In this document: positions 1,951 to 57,435 of the stretch, in pieces
Position numbering within the stretch: position 1 is the stretch's first letter
Layout: each line of letters starts with the position of its first letter
NCBI RefSeq assembly: GCF_004364865.1
Contig: NZ_SOAU01000001.1
Coordinates: 3,628,001 to 3,692,000 of the forward strand
Length of the DNA stretch: 64,000 bases
Direction of reading: 5' to 3'
Source: Ilumatobacter fluminis
GTDB lineage: Bacteria; Actinomycetota; Acidimicrobiia; Acidimicrobiales; Ilumatobacteraceae
Program-made: the position numbers and the translations under genes
Notes under the pieces: model-generated
Seen by the model: only the letters and a program-made list of their open reading frames with translations
Told to the model about the DNA's origin: nothing
The model's database searches: none

Positions 1951-1986
1951 GACCGATGACCGTACCCATGGAACACCGAGCCCAAA

Positions 1987-2198
1987 CAGATGAGGTCAGG
2001 CACCTTCTGTTGGAACGGACTCGATGAACCCGAGCGGTTGTCGAACAGAACAGATGGGGTCAGGCACCTTCTGTTGGAACGGACTCGATGAACCCGAGCG
2101 GTTGTCGAACAGAACAGATGGGGTCAGGCACCTTCTGTTGGAACGGACTCGATGAACCCGAGCGGTTGTCGAACAGAAGGTGCCTGACCCCATCTGTT
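1987..2198. repeat. 64-bp tandem array of palindromic repeats closed by an inverted copy
   Basis: Three direct copies start at 1987, 2051 and 2115 (exact 64-bp period). Each contains a palindromic unit built around GGGTCAGGCACC flanked by CAGATG and CTTCTGTT, then a 37-nt filler with GGACTCGATGAACCCGAG. The first copy has GAGG in place of GGGG. The array ends with the same unit inverted at 2172-2198, the exact reverse complement of the unit at 2113-2139. The inverted unit overlaps the last base of the transglutaminase stop codon. Same family as the units at 21189 and 34469. Confidence 0.9.
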
Positions 2199-7662: not shown

Positions 7663-8898
7663 ATGACGGCGAACCACGACGAGCTGATCGAACGGCACTT
7701 CCGCCCCGACGACCCGGCCTTCATCGCCGACCCGTACCCCGACTTCGCGGCGCTGCGAGCTGCGATGCCGATCGGGCGCGACCCGCGGAGCGGACAGTGG
7801 CTGATCACCCGGTTCGCCGACGTCCATGCGACACTGCGCGACCGGCGGCTCGGCCGGAACTACACCCAGTCGTTCGACCACGCCGAGTTCGGACGCCCCG
7901 AACCCGATCCGCGATGGGCGCGTTTCCACGAGCACGAAGCCTGGTCGCTCCTGGCGCTCGAACCACCCGACCACACTCGTCTGCGTCGCCTCGTCTCGAA
8001 GGTGTTCACCCAACGATCGGTCAACGCGCTCAGGCCGACGATCGAACGACGGGCGACCGAGCTGCTCGACCGCTGCGCCGAACGCGGCACGATCGACCTG
8101 ATCGCCGACTACGCCCAGCCGTATTCGGTCGGGGTGATCTGCGCCATGCTCGGCGTGCCCGACAGTGACACGCAACGACTCCTCGACTGGTCGCACGCGA
8201 TCGTCAAGATGTACGAGCTCCACGCCACCGACGAACAACGTGTCGCGGCGGACGAGGCGGCCGGCGAGTTCATCGAGTACGTACACGCGCTGATCGACCG
8301 CAAGCGCCACGAACCGGACGACCTGCTGCTGTCCGAACTGGTTCGGGTCGAGGACGACGACGACACCCTGACCGTGCCCGAGATCACCTCCACCACGATG
8401 GTGCTGCTCGAAGCCGGGCACGAGGCGACGGTCAACACCCTCGGCAACGGGATGCGGGCGATGCTGCATCACCCCGACCAGTGGCGCCGGGTCACGAGTG
8501 GCGAGGTCGACCCGGCCGACGCGGTCGAGGAGATGCTGCGGTGGGACTCGCCGACCCAGCTGTTCGACCGGTACGTCCTCGACGACGACGTCACGATCGC
8601 CGGCCGGCCACTCGAACGCGGCGACGAGGTGGCGATGCTGTTCGGCTGCGCCCAGCGCGACCCCGACCGATTCGCCGACCCCGACCGTTTCGACGTCGGG
8701 CGGGGCGACACCAAACACATCGGATTCGGCGGCGGCATCCACTTCTGCATCGGCGCCCCGCTCGCCCGCGTCGAGGTGGCGGTGTCGGTCGAGGCCATCG
8801 CCCGCCGCTTCCCCGACGTCGCCCTCGTCGACGACCCGACCTACCACCCCACCTTCGTCATCCGAGGCCTCGAGTCCCTCCACCTCGACGTCGGATGA
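7663..8898 (+). CDS. Cytochrome P450
   Basis: 411 residues from ATG 7663. All class hallmarks are present: the I-helix AGHEAT (251-256), the K-helix ExxR (Glu290-x2-Arg293) and the heme loop FGGGIHFCIG with the proximal Cys362. Length and motifs fit soluble bacterial class I P450s, which need ferredoxin partners; none is adjacent. The family is unassigned and the substrate unknown. It follows its presumed regulator by 5 bp and faces an exporter on the other strand. The stop codon (8896-8898) lies inside the palindromic repeat at 8890-8916, so the last two residues and the stop are repeat-encoded. Confidence 0.95.
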   Translation: MTANHDELIERHFRPDDPAFIADPYPDFAALRAAMPIGRDPRSGQWLITRFADVHATLRDRRLGRNYTQSFDHAEFGRPEPDPRWARFHEHEAWSLLALEPPDHTRLRRLVSKVFTQRSVNALRPTIERRATELLDRCAERGTIDLIADYAQPYSVGVICAMLGVPDSDTQRLLDWSHAIVKMYELHATDEQRVAADEAAGEFIEYVHALIDRKRHEPDDLLLSELVRVEDDDDTLTVPEITSTTMVLLEAGHEATVNTLGNGMRAMLHHPDQWRRVTSGEVDPADAVEEMLRWDSPTQLFDRYVLDDDVTIAGRPLERGDEVAMLFGCAQRDPDRFADPDRFDVGRGDTKHIGFGGGIHFCIGAPLARVEVAVSVEAIARRFPDVALVDDPTYHPTFVIRGLESLHLDVG

Positions 8899-8974
8899 GG
8901 TCAGACCCCATCCGACGAGCAGGCAGGTCAGGTCTCGTTCACGGTCCGTCGGATGGGGTCTGACCTCATCCGAC
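8890..8974. repeat. Inverted pair of 27-nt palindromic units (GTCGGATG..GGTCAGACC type)
   Basis: Unit 1 is 8890-8916 and unit 2 is 8948-8974, exact reverse complements of each other, 31 nt apart. Each is itself an imperfect palindrome (GTCGGATGAGG...CCCATCCGAC, centre GTCAGAC). Located between convergent P450 and ABC permease genes. Confidence 0.9.
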
Positions 8975-12400: not shown

Positions 12401-12483
12401 GTCGGTTGATGTCTGACATCAACCGACCGATCACGACCTGACAGCACCACCACCGAGTCGGTTGATGTCAGACATCAACCGAC
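12401..12483. repeat. Inverted pair of 27-nt palindromes (GTCGGTTGATGTC type)
   Basis: Units 12401-12427 and 12457-12483, 29 nt apart, are exact reverse complements. Each unit is almost perfectly self-complementary (GTCGGTTGATGTC/GACATCAACCGAC), with only the central base unpaired. It lies between the ABC operon promoter and the acyl-CoA dehydrogenase 3' end. Confidence 0.92.
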
Positions 12484-13748: not shown

Positions 13749-13754
13749 GTCCCC

Positions 13755-13760: not shown

Positions 13761-13767
13761 CCACTCC

Positions 13768-13787
13768 ACTTGACCCGCGGGTCAAGT
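13768..13787. promoter_or_regulatory. Perfect 20-bp palindrome, probable operator
   Basis: ACTTGACCCGCGGGTCAAGT is perfectly self-complementary and sits 8 bp upstream of the -10, over the -35 of the acyl-CoA dehydrogenase promoter. This is the size and position expected for a TetR-family (FadR/KstR-like) operator. Confidence 0.6.
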
Positions 13788-14227: not shown

Positions 14228-14312
14228 GTCGGATGAGGTCAGACCCCAACCGACTCGCCCCGACGCTCGCGCGCTCGATCGCGCTGTCGGTTGGGGTCTG
14301 ACCTCATCCGTC
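14228..14312. repeat. Inverted pair of 27-nt palindromic units
   Basis: Unit 1 14228-14254 (GTCGGATGAGG...CCCAACCGAC) and unit 2 14286-14312, 31 nt apart. They are inverted copies except for one base near the outer end. Same type as 8890 but with one arm changed from ATCC to AACC. It lies between the winged-helix gene and amtB. Confidence 0.88.
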
Positions 14313-15836: not shown

Positions 15837-16217
<381 letters not shown>

Positions 16218-17935: not shown

Positions 17936-18409
<474 letters not shown>

Positions 18410-18529: not shown

Positions 18530-19633
18530 ATGCGTAACCGTTCACTCACCTCGATCGCCGTCGTCGGCGCCCTGGCCTTCACCCTGGCCGCCTGCGGCGA
18601 CGACGGCAACGACGACGCCGCCGACACCACCGAGGTCGCCGACGAGTCGGGCGACATGGCCGACGAGCCCGGCACCATCGTCGACGTCGCCGTCGCCGCC
18701 GACGACTTCAACACCCTGGTCGCCGCCGTGCAGGCCGCCGGCCTGGTCGAGGCCCTGTCCGGCGAGGACGAACTCACCGTCTTCGCCCCGACCGACGAGG
18801 CCTTCGCCGCTGCCCTCGACGCACTCGGCCTCACCGCCGACGAGCTCCTCGCCGATACCGACACCCTGACCGAGATCCTCACGTACCACGTCGTGGCCGG
18901 TGAGGTCATGGCCGCCGACGTCGTCGGTCTCGACGGGCAGTCGGTCGAGACCCTGAACGGCGCCTCGGTCGAGATCAGCGTCGACGGCGAGACCGTCATG
19001 GTCAACGAGGCCACGGTCGTCACCGCCGATGTCGACGCCAGCAACGGCGTCATCCACGTCATCGATGCCGTTCTCCTCCCGCCGGCCGGCGACGACATGG
19101 CCGATGACGAGATGAGCGAAGAAGGCATGTCCGAGGACGAGATGGCCGAGGACGAGATGACCGAGGACGAAATGGCCGAGGACGAGATGGCCGAGGAGTC
19201 GATGGAGGGTGACACGATCGTCGACGTCGCCGTCGCCGCCGATGACTTCAACACCCTGGTCGCCGCCGTCGAGGCCGCCGGCCTGGTCGAGGCCCTGTCC
19301 GGCGAGGACGAGCTGACCGTCTTCGCCCCGACCGACGAGGCCTTCGAGGCCGCCCTCGAGGCGCTCGGCCTCACCGCCGAGGAACTCCTCGCCGACACCG
19401 AGACCCTGACCTCCATCCTCACCTACCACGTCGTGGCCGGTGAGGTCCTCGCCGCCGACGTCGTCGAGCTCGACGGCGAATCGGTCGAGACCCTGAACGG
19501 CGCCACCATCGACATCACCGTCGACGGCGACACCGTCATGGTCAACGACGCCACGGTCGTCACCGTCGACGTCGACGCCAGCAACGGCGTCATCCACGTC
19601 ATCGACACCGTGCTGGTTCCCCCGGCCGGCTGA
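18530..19633 (+). CDS. Lipoprotein with two fasciclin (FAS1) domains
   Basis: 367 residues from ATG 18530 behind CGGAGGATC. Signal peptide with lipobox LAAC (Cys22), so exported and lipid-anchored. Two FAS1 domains (about 48-185 and 228-367), each with [13 protein letters not shown](D/E)TLT(E/S)[11 protein letters not shown] and an SNGVIHVID motif. FAS1 domains mediate adhesion or extracellular binding. The linker (about 190-227) is a run of DEMAEDEM-type repeats rich in Met, Asp and Glu. The two domains are copies at DNA level with an exact 540-bp offset, so the second arose by recent in-frame duplication. A hairpin-like sequence at 18487-18510 lies in the 5' leader. Confidence 0.93.
18677..19625 (+). 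repeat. Internal tandem duplication of the FAS1 domain
   Basis: 18677-19085 and 19217-19625 are near-identical direct copies offset by exactly 540 bp (180 codons), separated by the Met/Glu/Asp linker coding region. Confidence 0.85.
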
Positions 19634-19995: not shown

Positions 19996-21189
19996 ATGAC
20001 CGACACCGCCGCTGCCCCCGCCAAGAGCGAGCGCTGGACCGCCCAGTGGAGAGAACTCAAGGCCGAGGTGGTCGACACCGGCTTGTGCACCGGGTGTTCG
20101 GCCTGTGTCGTGACCTGCCCGCACGACGTGATCGGGTACGAGCACGAGGAGGGCAAGTATCTGCCGTTCCACCTCGAGGAATCGCTCGGCGCCGACAACT
20201 GCATCCACGGCTTCGGCGAAGAGGGCGGTTGCACCACCTGCACCCGTGCCTGCCCCCGCTTCCGTGCGTGGGAGCCGGCCGCCGACATGCACCTGTTCGG
20301 CAAGGTCCGCGAACCCGACGAGATGGCGGGCATGTGGCGCAAGCTGCTGCTCACCCGGGCCTCCGACACGACCGTCCACGACATCGGCCAGGACGGCGGC
20401 TTCGTGTCGTCGATGCTGATCTGGCTCAAGGAGCACGACTACATCGAGGCCGCGCTGGTGTCGGGCGTCGAGGACGACGACCGCTGGAAGGCCAAGCCGC
20501 AGGTGGTCACGAACCGCGAGGAGATCCTGGCCACGGCGGGGAGCCGCTACACCTATTGCGCGAACCCGTTGGCGCTCCCCGAAGCCCGCGAGCGCGGGTT
20601 CGAGCGCCTGGCATTGGTCGGTATGGGTTGCCAGACGTCGTCGCCGCCCACGATGTGGGACCGCAAGGCCGGCAAGGTCTCGAAGCCGTTCCTGTTCAAC
20701 ATCGGGCTGCTCTGCTCGAAGACGTTCGACGATGCCATCTTCACCGAACTGTTCGAGGCCAAGTACGGCCTCAAGAAGCAGAACATGAAGAAGATGAACA
20801 TCAAGGGCGTGTTCCAGATCTGGATGGACGACGGCTCGTACCACGAGATCGACCTGAAGGAGTGCCACGCCTGGACGCGCAAGGGCTGCATGCACTGCCC
20901 CGACTTTGCTGCCGAGCACGCCGACATCTCCACCGGTGGCATCGGCGAGGACAACGACTGGACGCTCACGATCGTCCGCACCGAACTCGGCGAGGAAGTG
21001 ATCGACCGGATGATCGCCGACGGCTCGATCGAGGCGAAGCCGGCTCAGGAAGACGAGACGGCGATGCGCTTGCTGCGCCTGCTGTCGATCGTCAGCCGCC
21101 GACGCTGGCCGAACGATGCCGACCCGGCCCCCGCCATCGGTGTCCCCCCGCCCAAGAAGAAGAAGGCCGCCGCCGCGCCCAAACCCTGA
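19996..21189 (+). CDS. Coenzyme F420 hydrogenase/dehydrogenase beta-subunit family iron-sulfur protein (FrhB-like)
   Basis: 397 residues from ATG 19996. N-terminal ferredoxin-type cluster C31-x2-C34-x2-C37-x3-C41 and a second set C69...C79-x2-C82-x3-C86. FrhB N-terminal and C-terminal regions follow (DIGQDGGFVSSMLIW; GMGCQTSSPP; HCPDFAAEHADISTGGIG). The family moves electrons between flavin, Fe-S clusters and F420 or other partners; the exact reaction is not known for the actinobacterial branch. The tail is basic (KKKKAAAAPKP). No partner subunit is adjacent, so it acts alone or with distant partners. The TGA shares its last base with a palindromic repeat. Confidence 0.85.
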   Translation: MTDTAAAPAKSERWTAQWRELKAEVVDTGLCTGCSACVVTCPHDVIGYEHEEGKYLPFHLEESLGADNCIHGFGEEGGCTTCTRACPRFRAWEPAADMHLFGKVREPDEMAGMWRKLLLTRASDTTVHDIGQDGGFVSSMLIWLKEHDYIEAALVSGVEDDDRWKAKPQVVTNREEILATAGSRYTYCANPLALPEARERGFERLALVGMGCQTSSPPTMWDRKAGKVSKPFLFNIGLLCSKTFDDAIFTELFEAKYGLKKQNMKKMNIKGVFQIWMDDGSYHEIDLKECHAWTRKGCMHCPDFAAEHADISTGGIGEDNDWTLTIVRTELGEEVIDRMIADGSIEAKPAQEDETAMRLLRLLSIVSRRRWPNDADPAPAIGVPPPKKKKAAAAPKP

Positions 21190-21264
21190 ACAGAAGGGGT
21201 CAGGCACCTTCTGTGCAGCCGGCCATTACGGGCCGGCGCAGAACGGACGAACAGAAGGTGCCTG
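21189..21264. repeat. Palindromic pair, second unit cut by IS30-family insertion
   Basis: Unit 1 is 21189-21214 (AACAGAAGGGGTC...CTTCTGT). Unit 2 starts at 21250 with AACAGAAGGTGCCTG, breaks at 21264 and resumes at 22477. The 35-nt spacer contains GCCGGCC/GGCCGGC. Removing the insertion restores an exact inverted partner of unit 1. Confidence 0.9.
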
Positions 21265-22847: not shown

Positions 22848-22909
22848 GACGAATGGGGTCGGATACGTTTCGTCGGGACCGACGAAACGTATCCGACCCC
22901 ATTCGTCGG
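22848..22909. repeat. Perfect 30-bp inverted repeat with 2-nt loop
   Basis: Left arm 22848-22877 (CGACGAATGGGGTCGG...) and right arm 22880-22909 are exact complements around GA. It contains the GGGGTCGGATACGTTTCG type of core, a different sequence class from the other pairs. It lies 9 bp beyond the UdgB stop and probably also terminates transcription. Confidence 0.9.
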
Positions 22910-34468: not shown

Positions 34469-34552
34469 AACAGAAGGGGTCAGGCACCTTCTGTTCCCCG
34501 ACCTGCCGGTACCCACGGTCAGCTGAACGGAAGGTGCCTGACCCCTTCTGTT
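34469..34552. repeat. Inverted pair of palindromic units in a divergent gap
   Basis: Unit 1 34469-34495 (AACAGAAGGGGTC...CTTCTGTT) and unit 2 34526-34552, 30 nt apart, inverted copies with one mismatch. Same family as 1987 and 21189. It lies between the 5' ends of pdtaS and the HD gene, so here it cannot be a simple terminator. Confidence 0.9.
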
Positions 34553-39948: not shown

Positions 39949-40593
39949 ATGGCACTCCAGGCCGTCATCCCCCTCTTCCCGAAGTTCACCGCCCTCGACG
40001 GCATCGGGCCGTACGAGGTGCTGCAGCGCACACCCGACATCGACGTGACGTTCATCGGCCACGAACGCGGCGAGATCCGCTCGGAGAACGGCTTCCTCGG
40101 CATCACCCGTGACGCCACCTTCGAGGAGATCCCGCACCCCGATCTGATCGTGTTCCCCGGCGGCGTCGGGACCCGTCCCCTGGTGCACGACGACCGAGTC
40201 CTCGACTGGGTTCGCACCGCCCACGAGACGACACGCTTCACGACGTCGGTGTGCACCGGGTCGATCGTGCTCGGCGCCGCCGGTCTGCTCGACGGCCTGA
40301 CCGCGACGACCCACTGGGGCGCCTACGACGCGCTCGAGGCCACCGGCGCGACGCCGGTGTCGGATCGGGTCGTCGAACATCTCGACCGTCGCATCATCAC
40401 CGCGGCGGGCGTGTCGTCCGGCATCGACATGGCGCTGCGGTTGATGGAGTTGCTGTTCGACCGCGTCGCCGCCGAGGCCAGCCAGCTGATGATCGAGTAC
40501 GACCCCCAGCCGCCGTTCGACGCCGGCGCCGTCGCCAAAGCCGGCCCCGACGTCATGCCCCGCGTCGTCGAGTGGGCCGCCGCCCGCGAGTAA
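39949..40593 (+). CDS. DJ-1/PfpI family protein, isonitrile-hydratase-like
   Basis: 214 residues from ATG 39949 with GAAAGG upstream. Single DJ-1 domain: PLFPKFTALDGIGPYEVL with Asp17 and Glu23, IVFPGGVGTR and nucleophile Cys102 in SVCTGSIVLGAAGLL. Asp17 plus this Cys matches the catalytic pair of isonitrile hydratase (InhA), which turns isonitriles into N-formamides. That activity is inferred. It follows a GlxA-type regulator in the same direction. The stop is 2 bp before a palindromic repeat pair. Confidence 0.88.
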   Translation: MALQAVIPLFPKFTALDGIGPYEVLQRTPDIDVTFIGHERGEIRSENGFLGITRDATFEEIPHPDLIVFPGGVGTRPLVHDDRVLDWVRTAHETTRFTTSVCTGSIVLGAAGLLDGLTATTHWGAYDALEATGATPVSDRVVEHLDRRIITAAGVSSGIDMALRLMELLFDRVAAEASQLMIEYDPQPPFDAGAVAKAGPDVMPRVVEWAAARE

Positions 40594-40595
40594 CG

Positions 40596-40678
40596 GTCGG
40601 TTGATGTCAGACATCAACCGACCGTCCCGAACGGTTGGCCTCCCAGACCTGGTCGGTTGATGTCTGACATCAACCGAC
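40596..40678. repeat. Inverted pair of 27-nt palindromes (GTCGGTTGATGTC type)
   Basis: Units 40596-40622 and 40652-40678, 29 nt apart, exact reverse complements and same sequence as the 12401 locus, in the opposite order (CAG-centred unit first). Spacer unrelated to that of 12401. Confidence 0.92.
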
Positions 40679-40697
40679 ATCGACCGACATCGGCCGT

Positions 40698-40703
40698 CAG
40701 AAT
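40698..40703 (+). promoter_or_regulatory. -10 CAGAAT, leaderless-type promoter
   Basis: CAGAAT ends 6 nt before ATG 40710. Confidence 0.45.
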
Positions 40704-40709
40704 GGGTCG

Positions 40710-41924
40710 ATGACGACGGGGGCGCTACGGCGGCGGTTGTATGCGCTCGCCTTCGTCGACGAGTTCGGTCCCGTCTACGCCGTCTGGACGCTGTGGTTCA
40801 ACGACAACGACGTGTCGACCGGGCAGATCTCGACGGCGTTCCTGATCTGGGCCCTGATCGTGCTCGTCCTCGAGATCCCGAGCGGCGCCCTCGCGGATCG
40901 CGTCGACCGACGTCGCCTGCTCGCGGCCGCCTTCGCGGTTCGAGCAGCCGCTCTGTCGGTGTGGCTGATCTGGCCGACCGTCGGCGGGCTGCTCGTCGGC
41001 ACGACCCTGTGGGCCCTGCACGACGCACTCGCCAGCGGGACGTGGGAGGCGATGATCCACGACCAGCTGACCGCGGTCGACGACGAGCGGAGCTATCCGA
41101 CCGTGATGGCGCGGATCAGTCAGTTCAGCAATCTGGGCGTCGCCGCCGGCACCCTGCTCGGCGCCGTCCTCCTCAGCGAGCGCGTCGGGATCGTCGTCGG
41201 GCTGGCGACGCTCGGCTGGCTCACCGTCGCCGCACACGCCGGTTCGATCTCGCTCGTCACGACGATGCCAGACGTGCGTTGGGTCACCGACACCGGCGAA
41301 CCCACGTCCTTCCGGGCGTACGTCGGCACCCTGCGCGCCGGCGTCGGGGAGGCGAAGCGGGTCCCGGTGATCGGCAAACTCGTCGTGCTCGGCGCCCTCC
41401 TCGAGGGCCTGTTCCTGTTCGACGAGTACGTGCCGCTGTTGTCACGGACTCGTGGCGGGTCCGACGGCGCCGCACCCTTGATCGTGTTCGTCGTCTGGGT
41501 CGCCCTGTTGGTGGGCGGCGAGATCGCCGCACGCCGTCCGGACGTGCGCGGCGTGACGGTCGGCTCGGCGCTGATCCTCGGCACCGGCATCACCGCGACG
41601 GCGTTGCTCACCGAACCGGTCTGGACGCTCGCGCTGGTGGCGGTCGGGTACGGGATCCAGGAAGTCGCGTGGATCCCGACCGACGCCCGGCTGCAGGAAC
41701 GAGCGTCGCCTCGGGTGCGGGCGACGGTCACGAGCGTTCGCGGGTTCGGGAGCGGCGTGGTGAGCATGACCTTCTTCGCCGTCGTCGCCGTCATGTCGGA
41801 CGGTGACGACCCGACACCCGGCCTCCTCGCCGCCCTCGTCCTCCTCGCCATCGCCGGCACGCTGGTGATCGCCTGGCTCCCCGGTCGGATGGGGTCAGAC
41901 CCCAACCGACCCTCCGTCGGGTGA
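40710..41924 (+). CDS. MFS transporter with repeat-derived C-terminus
   Basis: 404 residues from ATG 40710. Around twelve membrane helices; ALADRVDRRRLLAAAFAVRA is the MFS loop after TM2; short cytoplasmic loop around 180-200. Distant similarity to tetracycline- or sugar-type exporters; substrate not assignable. The last residues (from about GRMGSDPNRP) are encoded by the palindromic unit at 41884-41910, so an insertion has replaced or extended the original C-terminus by about 13 residues. Confidence 0.85.
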   Translation: MTTGALRRRLYALAFVDEFGPVYAVWTLWFNDNDVSTGQISTAFLIWALIVLVLEIPSGALADRVDRRRLLAAAFAVRAAALSVWLIWPTVGGLLVGTTLWALHDALASGTWEAMIHDQLTAVDDERSYPTVMARISQFSNLGVAAGTLLGAVLLSERVGIVVGLATLGWLTVAAHAGSISLVTTMPDVRWVTDTGEPTSFRAYVGTLRAGVGEAKRVPVIGKLVVLGALLEGLFLFDEYVPLLSRTRGGSDGAAPLIVFVVWVALLVGGEIAARRPDVRGVTVGSALILGTGITATALLTEPVWTLALVAVGYGIQEVAWIPTDARLQERASPRVRATVTSVRGFGSGVVSMTFFAVVAVMSDGDDPTPGLLAALVLLAIAGTLVIAWLPGRMGSDPNRPSVG

Positions 41925-41967
41925 GCGTCCGAGCATGCTGGTCGGTTGGGGTCTGACCCCATCCGAC
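41884..41967. repeat. Inverted pair of palindromic units, first inside MFS coding region
   Basis: Unit 1 41884-41910 (GTCGGATGGGG...CCAACCGAC) lies in the MFS reading frame; unit 2 41941-41967 is its exact reverse complement, 30 nt away. Convergent gap with the SufR-like gene. Confidence 0.9.
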
Positions 41968-41984
41968 ATCAACCGACCGGGCGT

Positions 41985-42710
41985 TCAGACGGCGGTGGTG
42001 CAGAAGGTGTCGCCGGCGGCGAGGCTCGACTGGGTGGTGACGTCGAGGTCGCCGTCGGTGAGTTCGCTCAGCATGCCGCGCACCATGCCACGGTCGACTG
42101 CGCAGATGACCGGATGCTCCGTCGCGACGTCGCCGAACGGGCAGTGGTCGTTGATGATGCGCAGCTGATCGTTGCGGCTCTCGGCGTGGGCGGCGAACCC
42201 GTGCGCCGTCAACGCGTCGGCGACCGCCTGGATCGCCGAGCGCAACGATCGGTGACCGGCTTCGAGTTGCTCGCCGCGCAGACCGGCCGCCATCGCCCGG
42301 CCGTATTCGGCGCCGACCTCTTCGGCCATCGCCTCGGCGTCGGCCGGCGACATCCGTGTGAGCGCCCGACCGAGCAGTGACAGCAGCAGATCATCGGACC
42401 GGACCGGGAAGTCGGTCACGGCATCGGCGACGGCGACGTACCGCTTCGACGGACGGCCCGCTCCCCCGCCGGCGACCTTGCCAGTCTGGACCTCGAGGTA
42501 GCCGCCGGCGGCGAGCTTGTCGAGATGGTGGCGAGCCACGTTCGGGTGCACGCCGACGTGACCGGCGACCGCCGAGGTCGTGGCACCCAGGTCGCCACCG
42601 CGATCGCGGACGTACAGGTAGATCGCCCGTCGCGTCGGGTCGCCGAACGCGTCGGTGATCGCCGACACGGTGGCGTTGAACGACGCAGAACTGGACGCAG
42701 AACCGGGCAC
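41985..42710 (-). CDS. SufR-like winged-helix regulator with C-terminal Cys cluster
   Basis: 241 residues from GTG 42710. N-terminal winged helix (FGDPTRRAIYLYVRDRGG; HPNVARHHLDKLAAGGYLE; a Gly-rich wing GGGAGRPSKRY). C-terminal domain has Cys190 in NDHCPFG, Cys203 in VICAVDRG and Cys237 in DTFCTT; the C-x12-C spacing followed by a later Cys is that of Fe-S sensing SufR-type repressors. It is divergent from mrp, an Fe-S carrier gene, which supports Fe-S control. Minus-strand TAGAAT lies 7 nt before the GTG. Confidence 0.88.
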   Translation of the reverse strand: MPGSASSSASFNATVSAITDAFGDPTRRAIYLYVRDRGGDLGATTSAVAGHVGVHPNVARHHLDKLAAGGYLEVQTGKVAGGGAGRPSKRYVAVADAVTDFPVRSDDLLLSLLGRALTRMSPADAEAMAEEVGAEYGRAMAAGLRGEQLEAGHRSLRSAIQAVADALTAHGFAAHAESRNDQLRIINDHCPFGDVATEHPVICAVDRGMVRGMLSELTDGDLDVTTQSSLAAGDTFCTTAV

Positions 42711-42717
42711 GGTCGAG

Positions 42718-42723
42718 ATTCTA
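42718..42723 (-). promoter_or_regulatory. -10 TAGAAT, leaderless-type promoter of SufR-like gene
   Basis: Minus-strand TAGAAT ends 7 nt before GTG 42710. A weak ACTA-n6-TAGT repeat (42723-42736) overlaps it. Confidence 0.5.
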
Positions 42724-42758
42724 CTATCCGCGTAGTGCAAATGCCGGGCGGTCGCCGC

Positions 42759-42764
42759 CAGAAT
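42759..42764 (+). promoter_or_regulatory. -10 CAGAAT, leaderless-type promoter of mrp
   Basis: CAGAAT ends 7 nt before GTG 42772; it overlaps an in-frame ATG at 42763, which argues against that ATG as start. Confidence 0.45.
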
Positions 42765-42771
42765 GGACGCC

Positions 42772-43920
42772 GTGTCCGAGCAGATGAACCCGCAGTTGGT
42801 CGACGCGCTCCGCCCCGTCGAGGATCCCGAACTCCACCGATCGATCGTCGACCTCGGCATGCTCCGGCGTGCCGAACTCGGCGCCGACGGCACGGCGCAC
42901 ATCCTGGTGGCACTCACCGTCGCCGGGTGCCCGCTGCGCAACGAGATCCAGAACCGGGTGTCGAGCGCGGCGACCGAGGTCGACGGTGTCACCGACGTCG
43001 CCCTCGAGTTCACCGTCATGACCGACGACGAACGCGAAGAACTCCGCAAGATGCTGCACGGCGACGCCGCGTCGACCGCCGGCCACTCGCACGCCCACGG
43101 GCACGCCGAGGGTCGTGCCATCCCGTTTGCCGATCCCGGTTCGAAGACCCGTCCGTTGCTCATCTCGTCCGGCAAGGGCGGCGTCGGCAAGTCGAGCGTC
43201 ACCACCAACCTCGCCGTCGCGCTGGCCCAGCTCGGCCACTCCGTCGGGGTCGTCGACGCCGACATCTACGGCTACTCGATCCCGCGGATGCTCGGCACCG
43301 ATCGTCCGCCGACCGTCATCGACCAGATGCTCGTGCCGCCCGAGAAGTGGGGCGTGCGCTGCATCTCGATGGGCTACTTCGCTCCCCCCGGCGAGGCCGT
43401 CATCTGGCGAGGTCCGATGCTGCACAAGGCGCTCGAGCAGTTCCTCACCGACGTGTACTGGGACGAGCCCGACTTCCTGCTCATCGACATGCCACCGGGC
43501 ACCGGCGACATCGCGCTCAGCCTGAGCCAGTACCTGCCGCGCGGCGAGGTCTACGTCGTCACGACCCCGCAGCCCGCCGCACAGAAGGTGGCGGCGATGT
43601 CGGCGGCGATGGCCAAGAAGGTCAACCTGCCGGTGATGGGCATCATCGAGAACATGTCGTGGTTCACCGGCGACGACGGCAAGCAGTACGAGCTGTTCGG
43701 TGCCGGTGGCGGCCAGGAGCTGGCCGACGACCTCGGCGTGCCGCTGCTCGGTCAGCTGCCGCTCGTGCCGGCGCTGCGCGAGGGCTCCGACGCAGGTGCC
43801 CCCATCACGGCCGTCGACCCCGAGTCCGAGGCTGCGCAGGCGTTCCGCACGATGGCCCAGACGATCGCCGTCGATCTGCAGCCGAAGAAGCGGTTCAACG
43901 CCGAACTCAAGGTCCTCTGA
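42772..43920 (+). CDS. mrp: Mrp/ApbC/NBP35-family Fe-S carrier ATPase
   Basis: 382 residues from GTG 42772. N-terminal MIP18 (DUF59) domain (about 5-95) with Cys53 in AGCPLRNEI, a His-rich linker GHSHAHGHAEG (105-114), then the deviant P-loop SGKGGVGKSS (133-142), DADIYGYSIPRMLG, GYFAPPGEAVIWRGPM and LLIDMPPGTGD. The usual CxxC cluster site after ENMS is absent: the segment reads ENMSWFTGDDGKQYELFG. It would assemble or hand on Fe-S clusters as a dimer, perhaps with ligands elsewhere. Divergent from a SufR-like regulator and followed 19 bp later by a small zincin. Confidence 0.93.
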   Translation: MSEQMNPQLVDALRPVEDPELHRSIVDLGMLRRAELGADGTAHILVALTVAGCPLRNEIQNRVSSAATEVDGVTDVALEFTVMTDDEREELRKMLHGDAASTAGHSHAHGHAEGRAIPFADPGSKTRPLLISSGKGGVGKSSVTTNLAVALAQLGHSVGVVDADIYGYSIPRMLGTDRPPTVIDQMLVPPEKWGVRCISMGYFAPPGEAVIWRGPMLHKALEQFLTDVYWDEPDFLLIDMPPGTGDIALSLSQYLPRGEVYVVTTPQPAAQKVAAMSAAMAKKVNLPVMGIIENMSWFTGDDGKQYELFGAGGGQELADDLGVPLLGQLPLVPALREGSDAGAPITAVDPESEAAQAFRTMAQTIAVDLQPKKRFNAELKVL

Positions 43921-43939
43921 CCTTCGGCCGGCGGTCACC

Positions 43940-44278
43940 GTGGAGATCGTGCCGCGCTACAAGTTCGAGCAGATGGTCGTCGACGCGCTCGACGACCTGC
44001 CCGACGAACTCGTCCCGGTGCTCGACAACGTCGTCGTCCAGATCCACGACCGGAACCCGGACGAGCCCGATCTGCTGGGTTTGTACGAGGGCACGCCGCA
44101 CACCGAACGGATCGGTGACGAGGCACCCGACGTCGTGTCGATCTATCGCGTACCGCTGTGCGAGATGTGCGACGACCTCGACGACCTGAACGAGGAGATC
44201 TTCGTCACGGTGATCCACGAGATCGCCCACGCCGCCGGCATCGACGACGACCGCCTCCACGAGCTCGGCTGGGCCTGA
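43940..44278 (+). CDS. Small zincin-type metallopeptidase family protein
   Basis: 112 residues from GTG 43940. Zinc motif HEIAHAAGIDDDRLHELG (93-110) with HExxH plus a third His107. Two Cys in LCEMC precede it. Matches the short actinobacterial 'metallopeptidase family' (MinI-like) proteins of unknown substrate. It lies 19 bp behind mrp and is probably co-transcribed with it. An ATG at 43973 would cut the first 11 residues. Confidence 0.85.
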   Translation: MEIVPRYKFEQMVVDALDDLPDELVPVLDNVVVQIHDRNPDEPDLLGLYEGTPHTERIGDEAPDVVSIYRVPLCEMCDDLDDLNEEIFVTVIHEIAHAAGIDDDRLHELGWA

Positions 44279-44303
44279 CCCACCCGGCCCCGCCGGAACC
44301 AAC

Positions 44304-44443
44304 CGGGTCGGGTGTCGTACGGAACGACGAGGCGCAGCCGAGGCGTTTCGGGAGATCACCCGACCCGTGCCAAGCAGCGTTCCCGGGTCGGGTGATCTCC
44401 GGAAACGTCGACTCCGCCGCCGTTCCCTCCGACACCCGACCCG
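44304..44443. repeat. Nested double inverted repeat filling an intergenic gap
   Basis: Outer arms CGGGTCGGGTGTCG (44304-44317) and its exact complement (44430-44443), with weaker pairing continuing inward through GGAACG. Inner arms 44344-44367 and 44384-44407 form a 24-bp repeat with one mismatch, including CACCCGACCCG/CGGGTCGGGTG. All four arms contain the same CGGGTCGGGTG element in forward-reverse-forward-reverse order. A different sequence class from the GTCAGAC units. Confidence 0.85.
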
Positions 44444-44471
44444 AGGTGACGTCGGAGTGCCGTGGAAGCGG

Positions 44472-44477
44472 TACCGT
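44472..44477 (+). promoter_or_regulatory. -10 TACCGT, leaderless-type promoter
   Basis: TACCGT ends 7 nt before GTG 44485. Confidence 0.5.
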
Positions 44478-44484
44478 TGTCCGG

Positions 44485-45288
44485 GTGACCGACGTGCCAC
44501 CGCCGCCTCCGAGCGGCGGGTTCAACCCTCCGCCGCCACCACCTCCTCCCCCACCTCCGACCCCGGGCGCACAACTCGCTGCGCCGTCCGGGTACGTCGG
44601 GTACTCGGGCTCACCGATGTCGTCGATGCAGCTCAAGCGCGTCGGCGCCGTCGCCAGGGCGGCGATGATCCTCGTCGGGATCGCCGGCGGGTTCGCGCTG
44701 CTCACCGCGCTCCTCAACTACCCGCTCGTCGACGACGCCGAGGCGTTCCTCGACGGCGAGTCCTCGTCCGACGACTTCGCACGGTCGATGGCGCCCTATG
44801 GCGTCGTCACCCTCGTCCAAGCCGTCGCGACGCTGGCCTCGGTCGTGCTCGTCATGATCTGGATGTACCGCCTCGCCGCGAACCTCAAGGCCATGCACCG
44901 CAACGGCCGCTGGGCACCGGGCTGGGCGATCGGTGGCTGGTTCCTGCCGCCGCTGCTGTACGTGATCCCGTTCCTGATGTTCCGCGAGCTGTGGAAGGCG
45001 TCCGACCCCGAGGTGCCCGTCGGTGGCGAGTGGAAGTCCCGGCCGGTGTCGTGGGTGGTGACGGCGTGGTTCGTCGTCTACGGACCGATCTCGATCGTCG
45101 TCCAGATCGTCTCGGCCAGCGCCGGGTTCAACATGGGCGGCACCGAACGCGATCTCGCACAGCAAGTGATCGACGCGCAGGACACGGCGGCTCTGGCGGG
45201 CGTCGTGGGTGCGGTCGCAGCCGTCCTGTTCATCCTCATGGCCCGCCAGTTGACCGAGCGTCATCGGCGGTTGATCGGAGAGGCCTGA
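44485..45288 (+). CDS. DUF4328 membrane protein with poly-proline N-terminus
   Basis: 267 residues from GTG 44485. N-terminus is almost pure Pro/Gly (PPPPPSGGFNPPPPPPPPPP), then about five membrane helices. The conserved DUF4328 block runs from MIWMYRLAANLKAMHR through WAPGWAIGGWFLPP to FRELWKASDP. Function unknown; Pro-rich tails of this kind often face the cytoplasm and may bind other proteins. The next gene, sixA, starts 1 nt after its stop, so they are one operon. Confidence 0.88.
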   Translation: MTDVPPPPPSGGFNPPPPPPPPPPPTPGAQLAAPSGYVGYSGSPMSSMQLKRVGAVARAAMILVGIAGGFALLTALLNYPLVDDAEAFLDGESSSDDFARSMAPYGVVTLVQAVATLASVVLVMIWMYRLAANLKAMHRNGRWAPGWAIGGWFLPPLLYVIPFLMFRELWKASDPEVPVGGEWKSRPVSWVVTAWFVVYGPISIVVQIVSASAGFNMGGTERDLAQQVIDAQDTAALAGVVGAVAAVLFILMARQLTERHRRLIGEA

Positions 45289-45289
45289 C

Positions 45290-45757
45290 ATGGCCCAGCT
45301 GTACCTCGTCCGACACGCCAAGGCGGGCGAGCGGCGCCTCTGGAACGCGGACGACATCGAGCGTCCGCTCAGCAAGAAGGGCTGGAAGCAGGCCGAGCTG
45401 GTCGGCAAGCGCCTCGCCAAGCACGATCCGAGCGTGCTGTTGTCGAGTGCGTATGTGCGCTGCATCCAGACCCTCGAACCGCTGGGCGAACGACTCGATC
45501 TGCAGGTCGAGGTCGACGAGCGCCTCACCGAACACGAACCGGTCGAGCCGCTCCTCGAACTCATCCGGGAAGCGCCGAAGGGCGCTGTCATGTGCAGCCA
45601 CGGCGATCTCATCCCGGCGGCGCTCCAGCGCCTGAAGAAGGCGGGTGCGAAGATCGCCACCCAGCCCGACTGGCGCAAGTCGTCGGTGTGGGTCCTCCAG
45701 CGCAGCAAGCACGGCCACATCGTCAAGGCAACCGCCTGGCCACCCCCCGTCCTCTAA
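45290..45757 (+). CDS. sixA: Phosphohistidine phosphatase SixA-type
   Basis: 155 residues from ATG 45290. Histidine-phosphatase fold with LVRHAKAGE (His9), SSAYVRCIQTLEPL and the second His in VMCSHGDLIP. Short length and RHA rather than RHG motif fit SixA, which removes phosphate from protein histidines. Translationally linked to the DUF4328 gene. The stop is followed at once by a palindromic repeat that probably terminates both this gene and the convergent beta-propeller gene. Confidence 0.9.
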   Translation: MAQLYLVRHAKAGERRLWNADDIERPLSKKGWKQAELVGKRLAKHDPSVLLSSAYVRCIQTLEPLGERLDLQVEVDERLTEHEPVEPLLELIREAPKGAVMCSHGDLIPAALQRLKKAGAKIATQPDWRKSSVWVLQRSKHGHIVKATAWPPPVL

Positions 45758-45788
45758 CCGTCGGTCGATGTCAGACATCAACCGACGG
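45758..45788. repeat. Single palindromic unit between convergent genes
   Basis: CCGTCGGTCGATGTC and its complement (one mismatch) flank a central base, exactly filling the gap between the sixA stop (45755-45757) and the beta-propeller stop (45789-45791). The only locus with one unit instead of two. Probably a bidirectional terminator. Confidence 0.85.
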
Positions 45789-48626
45789 TCAGGAGCAGGA
45801 ACCGATGGTGGTGATCGGGGCGAGCGTCGTCAGATCGACGATCTGCACCGGGCCGCTGCCGACGGCGATCAACCGGTCACCGACGACGACCCCGCGAGTG
45901 AAGTTCGAACAGCTCGGCGCATACACGGCGCCGGCGTAGATCAGCCGCTGACCGACGTACCGACCGACGTGGAGTACCGAACCGCCCGTGCTGTCGATAT
46001 AGCCCGGCAGCACCACGGTGGAGGCTGCCGGCCACACGAGCACGGCCCGGTGGTCGTGGATCTCCGTCCAGCCCGGGAGTTCGATCTGCGATGTGCGCGT
46101 CGGCCGGTCGGGATCGGCGACGTCGAACAGCGACAACTGCGACCCGATCACCTCTCCGGTGTCCGGGTCGGCGTCGCGGCCGACACCCAGCAGTCGCCCG
46201 TTGCCGAGCGGGTGGAGGTAGGTCGAGAACCCCGGGATCTTCAGCTCACCGCGTAGCACCGGCCGCAGCGGATCGGCGAAGTCGACAACATAGAGCGGGT
46301 CGGTCTCGCGGAACGTGACCACGTACGACAACTCGCCGACGTGTCGCACCGCGTAGATCCGTTCACCCGGCCCCAGCTCGCCGACGGCGGAGATCCGTTC
46401 GAAGGAGTCGCCGGACCGCCGGAGGGCGAACACGGCCGACGAACTCTCGTTCCACCATCCGGACGTCACGGCGACCCGGAGGATCCCGTCGTACTCGCTC
46501 ATCGAGAACTGATTCAGCACCCGGCCCGGCACATCCGTGGACGCCTCGTACGTGGCCGAGGCGCCGTCGAGGTCGAACAGATGGATACCGGTCACGAAGG
46601 AGCCGTTCCCCCACCAGTCCCACCACTCGAAATTCTGTGTGGACACGTACAGCCGATCGGCCGTCGCCATCACCGAGGTGGTCCCGGTTTTCGTCATCAC
46701 GGCGGTACCCGATTGGCCCGCGGAGGGGCGTGCCAGATCGATGCTCGACACCCACAGCAGCTCCCCGCCCGCGGACGCGGCGGGGAGGCCGACCCGCTCG
46801 CACGGCATCGCCGGCCGCTCGGCGGTGTACGCGCCGTCGCGGATGTCGTACTGCAGCGGCAGCCAGTCGTCGATCGTGGACGCGGCGATCTGGCCGAGTG
46901 GGACCTCGACGTCGTCCCAATACCGCTGGTACGGAATCCGGTACGACTTGAGGACGAGATGGACCCGCCCGTCGATCCCGCGCATCGCCTCACGAACGCC
47001 GGTGACGCCGTAGCGCTCGAGCACGGTCGGATTCGACGGATCGGTGACGTCTGCCACCAGGACGTTCGTGGTGGACGTGTCGGCCGAGTAGCCCGTCGTC
47101 GTGACCATCAGCCGATCGCCGTACAGGATCATCTCGGCATGGTCGCCGTCGAGTGCGACCGTCGACGCGACCCGGTTGCGTTGGAGGTCGATGATCTCGA
47201 GCGTTCCCGGCTCGGACTCGCGGTAGAGGTATCGCCCGTCGGTCTCGACGAAGTCTCCCTCGTCGACCCCGTCGACCTGGGTGTTCGTCTCGGAGTGGTC
47301 GGGTACCGTCGTCGCCCCGTTGCCGTTCGTCGCCGGCAGTGTCGGGTAGGAGTACGCAGTCAGATCGCCCAGGTGGGCGTCGACGAATGCGTCGTAGATC
47401 GCATCGCACGACGCGCCGAACGTCAGATCGGACGCCGCCAACCGTCCGGGGATCCGCTCGATCCGGCGGGTGTCGATCAGCCGGTCACCGACCGGGTTGA
47501 TCGTGGCGGTGTGATCGGGAGCGATCACGGCGACCAGGTCGATGACGACGTGTGACGGGTTCACGAACGCCGAAACGCAAAGTCGCCCGGAGTCACCGAG
47601 TCGTGTCACCGTGAGGTTCGCCCAACTGGTCGAGGCGGTGTAGTTGTGGGTCGACGAACCGTCGCTCGCCTGCTCGAGCGCATGCGTGTTCAGGTGGCCG
47701 GGACCCGACGCGTTGGCGGCGGTGACGTTTGCGACGACGGCGGCGCCCGGCGTGCCGACCGGATCGGTCGTACACACCGTGCCGCCTGCCGCGACCCGTC
47801 GACCGGCCGTGCCTGCGTCGGGTTCACGCGTGTCGAGCAATCGGCCCCCGGCATCGGTCCGTTCGAACAGCGTCGAGTCGAGGACCGCGACGGCGTCGAT
47901 CACGACGTTGGCGGACGCGTGCGTGGACAGCGTGACGCAGATCGACGAGTCGGCCCCGAGCTCGACGACGGTCAGGTTGGCGCGGTTCGCGCCGGCGACA
48001 TAGTTCAGCGTCGACGTCGAGGTGGTGTCGGCGGCGCCCCTCGGGTGGGCGACCAAGTGTCCGGCTGACGATGGGTTCGCCGCCGTGACGTTCGCGAGCA
48101 CGACGGCGCCCGGGCCGGCCTCGACGGGCTCGCTGCACACCGTCTCACCCGGCTCGACCCGCGACGAAGGGCCGCGTCGCGAGTCGAAGACACGTGTCGA
48201 TCCGGTGAACGACCCGTCGACGGCGGCCCCGGGAAGGAGCCCGGCCAGATCGACGACCACGTGCGCGGCGGCGTGGATCGAGTTGGTGACGCACGCGACC
48301 CGATGCTCCCCGATCGCCACTGCAGCGAGCGCGGGAACCGTCGCATCCGCCTGGAAGTTCACGGTGGAGGTGGCGCTCGGGTCGGCGAGTTCGTGATGGG
48401 CGGTGAGGTGACCGCTCGCGGTCGGACGCACCGCGGTCACGTTCATCAGCGCGAGATCGCCGATCTCGGCGTCGGGCACCGGGATGCACGATGTCTCGAG
48501 TGGCCCGAGCCGGATCCCCCCGCCGGCCGACTCGGTGGGCGGTGCCGCCGACGTCGCTCCGACCGTGATCGACGTCGCCGCGACGACGAGCGCGATCAAT
48601 CCTGCAGTCCCCGGTCCCACCCGCAT
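45789..48626 (-). CDS. Secreted protein: three repeat domains plus C-terminal beta-propeller
   Basis: 945 residues from ATG 48626; reading on to 48740 would translate a palindromic repeat. Signal peptide (GLIALVVAATSITVGATSAA). Residues about 35-400 hold three copies of a domain of about 120 residues, each with NVTA, a GHL(T/V/N)(A/T)H motif, ST(V/L/H)NY or NF, a Cys pair and a VVIDL ending. About 430-945 match the COG4880/Beta_propel family (TQVDGVDEGDFVETDGRYLY; RYLY and VVTFRETDPLYVVDFADP). Probably cell-surface or extracellular; the N-terminal repeats resemble cell-surface modules common in Acidimicrobiia. Minus-strand TAGCGT lies 7 nt before the ATG. Confidence 0.9.
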   Translation of the reverse strand: MRVGPGTAGLIALVVAATSITVGATSAAPPTESAGGGIRLGPLETSCIPVPDAEIGDLALMNVTAVRPTASGHLTAHHELADPSATSTVNFQADATVPALAAVAIGEHRVACVTNSIHAAAHVVVDLAGLLPGAAVDGSFTGSTRVFDSRRGPSSRVEPGETVCSEPVEAGPGAVVLANVTAANPSSAGHLVAHPRGAADTTSTSTLNYVAGANRANLTVVELGADSSICVTLSTHASANVVIDAVAVLDSTLFERTDAGGRLLDTREPDAGTAGRRVAAGGTVCTTDPVGTPGAAVVANVTAANASGPGHLNTHALEQASDGSSTHNYTASTSWANLTVTRLGDSGRLCVSAFVNPSHVVIDLVAVIAPDHTATINPVGDRLIDTRRIERIPGRLAASDLTFGASCDAIYDAFVDAHLGDLTAYSYPTLPATNGNGATTVPDHSETNTQVDGVDEGDFVETDGRYLYRESEPGTLEIIDLQRNRVASTVALDGDHAEMILYGDRLMVTTTGYSADTSTTNVLVADVTDPSNPTVLERYGVTGVREAMRGIDGRVHLVLKSYRIPYQRYWDDVEVPLGQIAASTIDDWLPLQYDIRDGAYTAERPAMPCERVGLPAASAGGELLWVSSIDLARPSAGQSGTAVMTKTGTTSVMATADRLYVSTQNFEWWDWWGNGSFVTGIHLFDLDGASATYEASTDVPGRVLNQFSMSEYDGILRVAVTSGWWNESSSAVFALRRSGDSFERISAVGELGPGERIYAVRHVGELSYVVTFRETDPLYVVDFADPLRPVLRGELKIPGFSTYLHPLGNGRLLGVGRDADPDTGEVIGSQLSLFDVADPDRPTRTSQIELPGWTEIHDHRAVLVWPAASTVVLPGYIDSTGGSVLHVGRYVGQRLIYAGAVYAPSCSNFTRGVVVGDRLIAVGSGPVQIVDLTTLAPITTIGSCS

Positions 48627-48633
48627 CGCCGAG

Positions 48634-48639
48634 ACGCTA
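48634..48639 (-). promoter_or_regulatory. -10 TAGCGT, leaderless-type promoter of beta-propeller gene
   Basis: Minus-strand TAGCGT ends 7 nt before ATG 48626, supporting that start. Confidence 0.5.
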
Positions 48640-48694
48640 CATCGCCGGACGACCCGCCGATGGATAACGTCCGTCCTCCCAGGAAGTCGCGATG

Positions 48695-48777
48695 GTCGGT
48701 CGATGTCAGACATCAACCGACGGTCGTGACCGTCCGGCATCGCAGACCTGGTCGGTTGATGTCTGACATCAACCGAC
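48695..48777. repeat. Inverted pair of 27-nt palindromes (GTCGGTCGATGTC / GTCGGTTGATGTC)
   Basis: Units 48695-48721 and 48751-48777, 29 nt apart, reverse complements except one C/T change. The spacer ends CAGACCTG like the 40623 spacer. It ends 3 bp before the ccmI-like stop codon. Confidence 0.92.
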
Positions 48778-48780
48778 AGG

Positions 48781-49533
48781 TCAGGGGGCGTCGGCTCGGG
48801 CTTCGTCGAGGAGGGGTTCGACGAGCGTGCGGACGTCGGCCGGGGGGTTGTACTCGAGGCAACGCTCGAGGTACGGGACCGCGTTCGTCGGCGACTGCAG
48901 GAACCGGATCTGGACGATGCCGATGAAGCAGTGCGCGTCGGGGTACTCGGGATCGAGTTCGACGGCGCGGCCCAGCGAGTCGATCGATGTCTTCAATGCG
49001 TCGGTGACGTCGGTCGAGTCCTCCATCGCCCGGGTCGACAGTGCGAGCGTCCATCCCCGGTAGGTGAGCGACTCAACGTCGTCGGGTTCGTTCTCGAGTG
49101 CCTCGGCGTACAACGCGGCAGCGGCGCCGGGCTGCTCGAACATCAGCGCTCGGGCCTGAGCGACGAGCACCGTCTGTTCGTCACGCGGATCGAGACCGGT
49201 CGCCGTCTGCCCGGGCAGGCGTTGCGCCGACCAGGCGGCGAGCGCCCACCACACCACGCCGAACAGTGCGACGACGGCGACACCCGTGACGATCCGTCGC
49301 TTCCAGTCGACCGGCGGCTTGGTCGGCAGTGCCGCCTTGCGGTCCTCGATCGCACGGAGCGTTGCCGCGGCGCGCACCGTGTAGCCGTCCTTCAGTTCCT
49401 GATAGTCGACCTCGTCGATGTCACCGGCGCGGAACTCGCGCTCGAGATCGTTCAGCGACCGCAGGAGGAACCGACGTTCCTCCTCGAGCTCGGCCAACCG
49501 ATCGGGATCGACTCCGTTACGCGTCGTCGGCAT
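48781..49533 (-). CDS. ccmI: CcmI-like TPR protein of cytochrome c maturation
   Basis: 250 residues from ATG 49533. N-terminal part with LAELEEERRFLLRSLNDLEREFRAGDI (the CcmI hallmark helix), one membrane helix (about 78-98), then TPR-like helices (ARALMFEQPGAAAALYAEAL; LGRAVELDPEYPDAHCFIG). CcmI presents apocytochrome c to the haem ligase. Last gene of the ccm operon; its start overlaps the ccmH 3' end by 17 bp. Annotated as ccmI on position and layout, since sequence conservation is weak. Confidence 0.82.
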   Translation of the reverse strand: MPTTRNGVDPDRLAELEEERRFLLRSLNDLEREFRAGDIDEVDYQELKDGYTVRAAATLRAIEDRKAALPTKPPVDWKRRIVTGVAVVALFGVVWWALAAWSAQRLPGQTATGLDPRDEQTVLVAQARALMFEQPGAAAALYAEALENEPDDVESLTYRGWTLALSTRAMEDSTDVTDALKTSIDSLGRAVELDPEYPDAHCFIGIVQIRFLQSPTNAVPYLERCLEYNPPADVRTLVEPLLDEARADAP

Positions 49534-50062
49534 CGTCGCTCGCCTCGGCGCGCACCGGCACCGGTTCGTCCTCGTGCTCGTCGAAGTTGGCCATGGCGTC
49601 GGCGACGAGCGCGTAGTCGTCGTCGGTCGCCTCCCCCAGGGCACGGGCGCTCTGCTGCCAACGGCGGAACGCGAACCCGAGCCCGGTCGCGCCGATGACG
49701 AACGCCGCGGCCGGCAGGGCCCACGCAAGCGCCTCGACGCCGTCGGCTGTCGGGACGAGGAGTTCCTCGCCCTCGTACGCCACGACGATGTCCTGGATGA
49801 TCTGTTCGTCCGACTTGATGCCGTCGTTCACGTCCTGCTTGATCGCCTCGCGGATCTGCACGGACGCCGTGTTGCGCGACTCGTACACGCTCTCGCCCTG
49901 GCAGATCGGGCAGGCGAGCCGTTTCGAGATCGCCTCGATCCGTTCGTCGGGGGTACGTGGCCCGGTGTCGCGGGTAGCGCCGACGGCGAGCAGGGCGACG
50001 ACCGCGAGTCCGAGCAGCACCCACCCCGGCCACCGCTTGAGCTTCCGGTTGACGCTCGTCAT
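49517..50062 (-). CDS. ccmH: Cytochrome c maturation protein CcmH (CycL-type)
   Basis: 181 residues from ATG 50062, overlapping the ccmG stop by 4 nt. Membrane helix (about 11-29), then the conserved ISKRLACPICQGESV with redox Cys51 and Cys54, and a second helix (about 105-125). CcmH reduces the haem-binding cysteines of apocytochrome c outside the membrane. The C-terminal tail is acidic and specific to this lineage. Confidence 0.92.
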   Translation of the reverse strand: MTSVNRKLKRWPGWVLLGLAVVALLAVGATRDTGPRTPDERIEAISKRLACPICQGESVYESRNTASVQIREAIKQDVNDGIKSDEQIIQDIVVAYEGEELLVPTADGVEALAWALPAAAFVIGATGLGFAFRRWQQSARALGEATDDDYALVADAMANFDEHEDEPVPVRAEASDDADDA

Positions 50063-57352: not shown

Positions 57353-57435
57353 GTCGGATGATGTCAGACATCATCCGACGGACCCAGGTAGCCGGACGCC
57401 GGCAGCTGGTCGGATGATGTCTGACATCATCCGAC
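57353..57435. repeat. Inverted pair of 27-nt palindromes (GTCGGATGATGTC type)
   Basis: Units 57353-57379 and 57409-57435, 29 nt apart, exact reverse complements. Differs from the 12401 type by A for T in both arms (GGATGATG for GGTTGATG), so all four quarter-arms carry the change. Between convergent sortase and DUF6886-like genes. Confidence 0.92.

Follow-up and report, generated by a model that had tools for sequence, protein, structure and literature searches.

Palindromic repeats at gene ends of the window

The window (the whole stretch of 64,000 nucleotides of Ilumatobacter fluminis DNA analysed here) contains two families of REP-type palindromes, named A (GTCGGWTGRKGTCWGAC..) and B (GAMCAGAWGGGGTCAGGCACCTTCTG..), which are mostly arranged as inverted pairs (REPINs). 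The family A unit is a 27-bp near-perfect palindrome present in 15 copies, as seven pairs and one single unit, while the family B palindrome, centred on CAGAAGGGGTCAGGCACCTTCTG, occurs as an array of four units, one single unit and one pair. Their positions with respect to the neighboring genes are the following.

40710..41924 (+): MFS transporter (PF07690 and orthologues); its last 12 residues come from a repeat unit and spacer
41884-41910 and 41941-41967 (41884..41967): family A inverted pair; first unit within the MFS ORF 40710-41924, at its 3' end
8890..8974: family A inverted pair; the TGA of the P450 ORF 7663-8898 (stop 8896-8898) is bases 7-9 of unit 8890-8916
40596..40678: inverted pair of family A; the gene ending at 40593 has its stop 2 nt before it
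45760..45786: single family A unit between the convergent stops 45757 and 45789, 2 nt to each
48695..48777: inverted pair of family A; the stop of 48781-49533(-) lies 3 nt away
57353..57435: inverted pair of family A, flanked by convergent stops at 9 and 10 nt
12401..12483: inverted pair of family A; distance to the stop of 12513-13769(-), 29 nt
14228..14312: inverted pair of family A; nearest called stop 81 nt away
1985..2198: four family B units in an array; the final one abuts TGA 2198-2200, the stop of the 1114-aa gene 2198-5542(-)
21187..21214: lone family B unit; gene 19996-21189 stops at TGA 21187-21189, with which the GA foot coincides
34469..34552: inverted pair of family B in a divergent gap, away from any stop

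The unit at 41884-41910 lies inside the transporter ORF and codes most of GRMGSDPNRP, the C-terminus of this protein; the stop of the gene 41985-42710(-) is found 17 nt from the far end of the same pair. The P450 ORF matches PF00067. A first-pass annotation had described the unit-coded end of the transporter, the P450 stop inside a unit, the stops at 2198 and 21187 overlapping units by one base, and units 2-3 bp away from the stops at 40593, 45757, 45789 and 48781. These positions were all recovered, the distances being 2, 2, 2 and 3 nt, and the single shared base at 2198 and 21187-21189 refers to the family B core, more bases being shared when the GA foot is counted.

Repeat anatomy and RAYT transposases

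REPs are widespread repeats of bacterial genomes and, to our knowledge, the manner in which they choose their sites is not settled. In the host genome, a single contig of 4,775,416 bp, one exact degenerate pattern detects family A in 159 places, and its backward-read control in none. The spacing of neighboring family A units is 54-58 bp (about 56) in 38 of 45 pairs, and 18 of these 45 pairs are exact reverse complements, as compared with a mean of 2.9 and a maximum of 9 in shuffles. It is this regular spacing of inverted pairs, together with the exact complementarity, that gives family A the anatomy of a REPIN. The units of both families are also short, palindromic, present in high copy number and mainly extragenic, with 33 clusters in gaps and one in coding sequence for family A, and 19 and none for family B. 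The GTAG/GTGG or CGTC foot of REPs is practically missing from the 6 nt outside the units: GTAG stands at 1/158 and CGTC at 3/158 family A edges, GTAG at 0/80 and GTGG at 2/80 family B edges. Another tetranucleotide, CnGA, is found at a fixed place directly outside the family B core (31/80 edges), and at any place within 6 nt of family A units at 8/158 edges. The n of the family B motif is T in 8/9 cases at stops, in 0/6 other outer edges and in 5/16 inner edges.

The transposases of such elements were searched for with the Y1_Tnp domain PF01797. A single match over the cut-off was obtained in the host genome (L001:1275-2422), and this RAYT is flanked by a third family, C (GGGTCAGGTGCCAGAGGTGACG..), with three units upstream and four downstream; none of the host matches over the cut-off is flanked by A or B. 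In the sister genome G004, a RAYT (L263 / G004:C46:18449-19255) has family A units on both sides and contains one in-frame TAG, and in the sister genome G003 a RAYT with an intact frame (L264:1441-2370) has family B pairs on both sides. The frame of the latter enters the downstream B pair, so that its C-terminus is repeat-coded. The host RAYT is 33% identical to that of G003, and the RAYTs of the other sisters 40-52%. The two RAYTs tested score 30.7 and 37 bits for PF01797 (cut-off 23); REP_Tyr_transpos is their best and only NCBIfam family, yet with 53.4 and 46.5 bits they remain below its cut-off of 80. As read by eye, they show YVALNP and YIHRNP and lack the Y----Q motif of class 3 TnpA-Y1 proteins. 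The exact family A pattern is present 113 times in G004, once in G003 and not at all in the other seven of the nine congeners. Since the sole RAYT detected in the host carries another repeat, A and B look orphaned there, their cognate RAYTs being detected in sister genomes only.

Accumulation of the units at the 3' ends of genes

The distribution of the units was analysed in a contiguous 1.2 Mb of the host genome plus the window (1.26 Mb in total), where 1094 genes were called by an in-house codon model rather than by a standard annotator. The null consisted of a random point placed in the real gaps, after the units had been cut out, and of its distance to the stop. Clusters located within 13 nt of a stop amount to 26/33 for family A (null 0.083, P = 2e-22) and 15/19 for family B (about 8% expected, P = 2e-13); within 3 nt, they still amount to 16/33 and 13/19 (null about 0.03). 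The preference for 3' ends suggested by the first-pass annotation is borne out by these figures. Convergent gaps hold 16/33 family A clusters (null 0.15) and 5/19 family B clusters and, in tandem gaps, the cluster is nearer to the stop than to the start in 14/15 and 10/12 cases, respectively. Among the stop-facing edges under 40 nt, 12/20 of family B fall at -2..0 and 7/45 of family A at exactly -9, which places a TGA at unit bases 7-9; TGA is the stop of 963 of the 1094 called genes in this sample.

In the 330 kb sampled from G004, the excess of family A within 13 nt is weaker (5/15, P = 0.016); an excess is also present for family B (4/5) and for another family, D (4/7), three edges of the latter directly following a TGA. 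Family C lies near stops at 0/28 within 3 nt, 5/28 within 13 nt (P = 0.08) and 11/28 within 30 nt (P = 0.003), while families H (13/36) and E (8/16) show within 13 nt an excess weaker than that of A and B.

The explanation considered here as probable is that A and B are REP/REPIN elements, non-autonomous products of transposition by a RAYT (Y1, IS200/IS605-like), which gather at the 3' ends of genes, family B sparing the stops by means of its foot and family A supplying protein tails. The distribution might also arise by tolerance only, the units inserting anywhere and surviving just 3' of stops because coding sequences and promoters are protected. The rarity of clusters in coding sequences and in divergent gaps (2/33 for A, 2/19 for B) agrees with such a process, and the free space of convergent gaps, often under 5 nt, would force closeness in any case. 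In tandem gaps, where the observed class includes stop-overlapping edges, which the null cannot produce, family A is within 3 nt in 4/15 cases, with P = 0.055 for a tolerated zone of 40 nt, 0.32 for 20 nt and 0.003 for the whole gap, whereas family B is within 3 nt of the stop or over it in 9/12, where the 40-nt zone predicts a mean of 2.9 (P = 5e-5; 4e-4 for 20 nt). The first-pass annotation had left the choice between preferential insertion and tolerance; for family A, tolerance of the 3' flanks over 20-40 nt suffices to account for the distances seen in tandem gaps, but it is not enough for family B. Tolerance as the only cause is rather unlikely.

At several 3' ends where the host has A or B, G003 or G004 carries other families (D, E). 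The existence of hot spots at 3' ends was tried as a candidate on eight G004 contigs, chosen for length after the orthologue ends had been viewed, and was rejected. The gene-level test gave 8/25 against 7/167 (P = 1e-4) but counted the partners of the chosen cases, of which 7/12 are occupied in G004; the test by region with these cases removed gave 3/15 against 6/145 (P = 0.04), significance being reached in none of four matched strata, and P rose to 0.15 without same-family pairs. The lack of significant co-occupation of orthologous G004 gaps in strata matched for gap or orientation is a further point compatible with tolerance.

A role of the units in mRNA is possible, and the hairpins could have been kept beside stops as 3' stabilisers, as terminators or as a means of slowing terminating ribosomes. 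When folded as RNA, four pairs gave -58 to -69 kcal/mol (z about -10), a very high stability, and passages of PMC12306157 repeat that ribosomes stall at E. coli REPs located within 15 nt of a stop. However, pattern-matched family A has no copy in seven of the nine congeners, where the compared genes end normally, and terminator-like sites are absent from the scanned 10-kb stretch 40000-50000, in which 0 intrinsic terminators (hairpin plus T-run) were found against a mean of 2.4 in shuffles. Conservation for such a function is an improbable origin for the pattern, and the gathering of REP/REPIN units at 3' ends remains the probable explanation.

Comparison of the C-termini with those of orthologues

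For 22 genes having a unit on or close to their stop, the C-termini were searched in nine congeners; 98 places, hand-picked among the matches listed, were fetched and the protein ends compared. The comparisons counted were 74, the 28 rows of G003 and G004 being left out since both genomes carry many such repeats; the rows of G002 were kept, although two of these stops are followed there by another repeat and a third by a diverged copy. Two of the seven family A genes with an edge at -9 (cases 26 and 43) were dropped for want of a usable orthologue. A unit of family A or B was found near the stop of the relatives in 0/74 counted comparisons.

For the 12 family B genes, the relatives are of equal length in 26/43 comparisons and within 3 residues in 38/43, with ends such as ..AADGI* in 5/5 or ..TQYIATSW*, identical or one residue off, in 5/5. 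For 9/12 genes, one relative or more has the same length and no unit at the site; the figure is 10/12 if the sisters of case 0 (G003 and G004, B-free and of equal length) are counted. The comparison thus indicates that family B mostly sits on pre-existing stops. In cases 0, 13 and 48, all the relatives compared, G003 and G004 apart, are longer by 1-5 residues; in cases 13 and 48 the compared sisters (G003; G003 and G004) also carry B, and family B may have caused a small truncation in these two cases.

Family A behaves differently: either the protein ends at the TGA of the unit itself (unit bases 7-9), or the unit is read through. In the six genes whose stop lies in a whole or half unit, the last 2-5 residues have no homology in 18/21 comparisons, and the length is within 3 residues in 18/21. 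The MFS transporter of the host ends WLPGRMGSDPNRPSVG, and its relatives end WLPPASSADADA, WLPDHQGAHPTPPPK, WLPERRASTTTEA and WLPGRERAQMNT; after WLP, the tail counts 13 residues in the host and 9-12 in the four relatives, all with other tails. To judge from these ends, the tail is fast-changing in all the proteins compared and unit-coded in that of the host. The gene ending at 40593, 2 nt before its pair, has an end unchanged with respect to 3/3 compared relatives devoid of family A. The idea put forward at first pass, that some insertions have altered C-termini, holds for family A (MFS, P450 and others) and fails for most family B genes, for which the refuting observation named at first pass was made, 9/12 having a relative of equal length with no unit at the site.

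In the rows left out, the family B genes have equal length in 16/18; for family A, the unit's end recurs in G004 in case 47, and the two ends agree in case 63. As a baseline, 107/160 repeat-free pairs of the host (G000) and G004 share their stop, and the stop is shared for 6/7 exact-B genes and 2/3 genes overlapped by A.

These results also bear on the idea that units of both families truncate genes by making new stops. The idea is true in form for family A, where seven edges bring a TGA at unit bases 7-9, and conceivable for family B in cases 13 and 48; nevertheless, the unit-free relatives of equal length contradict it for most family B genes, and family A lengths differ by 3 residues at most in 18/21 comparisons, which makes it very improbable as a general account. 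Chance coincidence between abundant repeats and short intergenic gaps (the genes called cover about 90% of the 1.2-Mb sample) can be practically dismissed, as the null with real gap lengths and units removed still gives P = 2e-22 for A and 2e-13 for B at the 13-nt limit. The reading that best fits these data is still that of REP/REPIN units which gather at 3' ends, B leaving the stops intact and A adding tails.

Proposed mechanism of insertion

On the basis of this reading, A and B would be inserted by a RAYT. Where family B has a CnGA foot outside its hairpin, this foot is usually CTGA at stops, and an element joined at an existing TGA would leave the stop intact and the protein unchanged. 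Family B would thus target CTGA, joining at or in this tetranucleotide with its own foot replacing the bases used. A target choice based on the foot is plausible, since enzymes of the IS200/IS605 group, according to passages of PMC6006769, pick their sites by interactions between a foot tetranucleotide and a target tetranucleotide. Family A, for which no fixed CTGA offset was found, would settle without fixed offset in the tolerant zone round stops. Over the last codons and in one frame, its own TGA (GTCGGWTGA) terminates the protein, mostly as ..VG*; in the MFS gene, the unit lies in another frame and is read through. No insertion event or empty site was observed in the sequences compared. 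A general targeting of TGA by family B was considered and abandoned, as a TGA stands at the junction of 2/20 edges only away from stops, one of them at the same offset.

A more specific proposal, made tentatively, is that the foot/target tetranucleotide of a RAYT may also serve as a stop codon; for family B this would be CTGA, made up of TGA and the base that closes the final codon, in the same way as GTAG holds TAG elsewhere. If true, these would be stop-codon-seeking transposons whose joining regenerates the stop, rendering insertion at gene ends harmless, and repeat families would be expected to track the main stop codon of their host. With B on pre-existing stops and its foot over the TGA, site choice and survival can be directly tested against each other. 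For annotation, a warning is that the last residues of some proteins would derive from mobile DNA.

Comparison with known systems

The GTAG- and CGTC-tagged REPs are, in the passages of PMC3733652 (Di Nocera 2013) that concern them, high-copy short palindromes, single or in inverted pairs, located mostly in convergent or tandem gaps and often under 20 bp from 3' ends, with GTAG termini giving TAG stops. The present units share the abundance, the arrangement and the location of these REPs, but their outer motif is not GTAG (1/158 edges for A, 0/80 for B); the motif of family B is CnGA, and the stops concerned are TGA. The main text of this paper contains no mention of Ilumatobacter or Actinobacteria, and its passages on 3' ends hold no orthologue test of the age of the stops. 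In the relevant passages of PMC6006769, class 3 TnpA-Y1 proteins have the 5' foot CnGA, and their elements may resemble family B, in which CnGA stands at 31/80 edges, by this foot outside the hairpin, as well as by the high copy number they can reach; the RAYTs described here, however, display Y---NP, the class 2 signature of the same source, and not Y----Q. According to a table of PMC12306157, REPs are predicted in three Actinomycetota, one of them Acidimicrobium ferrooxidans, and REPs as such are therefore not new to this phylum.

As far as the literature was searched, families A and B, the provision of TGA by a CnGA foot where the RAYTs have the class 2 motif, and the orthologue evidence that parts the stop-preserving B from the stop-supplying A all seem to be new. 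A study of Pseudomonas reportedly described REPINs as two inverted REPs with a spacer and a RAYT flanked by REPINs; the inverted pairs are alike here, but no cognate RAYT of A or B was detected in the host genome. Liang, Rudd and Deutscher are said to have reported in 2015 that E. coli REPs near stops stall ribosomes. The units studied here are likewise hairpins within 15 nt of stops.

Additional repeats

Other repeats were noticed in the course of this work. The 36-bp repeat of G002 (C180:10097-10132 and C180:17707-17742), located shortly after the stops of two orthologues and as a diverged copy after a third, is present in at least 26 places at up to 3 mismatches and has no match in G000 and G008. 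Family H forms composite arrays (CCCTCCGACACCCGACCCGG with GAGATCACCCGACCCGG) at G000:C1:460632-461040 and 11746-11970, and its core units number 36 in 1.2 Mb. In the window, two family E units form a pair at 22855-22900; the 1.2-Mb sample contains 30 units of this family. The window also contains two pairs of 300-nt stretches, 18634-18933 with 19174-19473 and 15874-16173 with 18066-18365, which are 86% and 84% identical and apparently correspond to an internal duplication in one gene and to two paralogous small genes. Finally, a 15-bp tandem repeat at 19086-19205 would code, as read by eye, for an acidic EDEMA-like linker.
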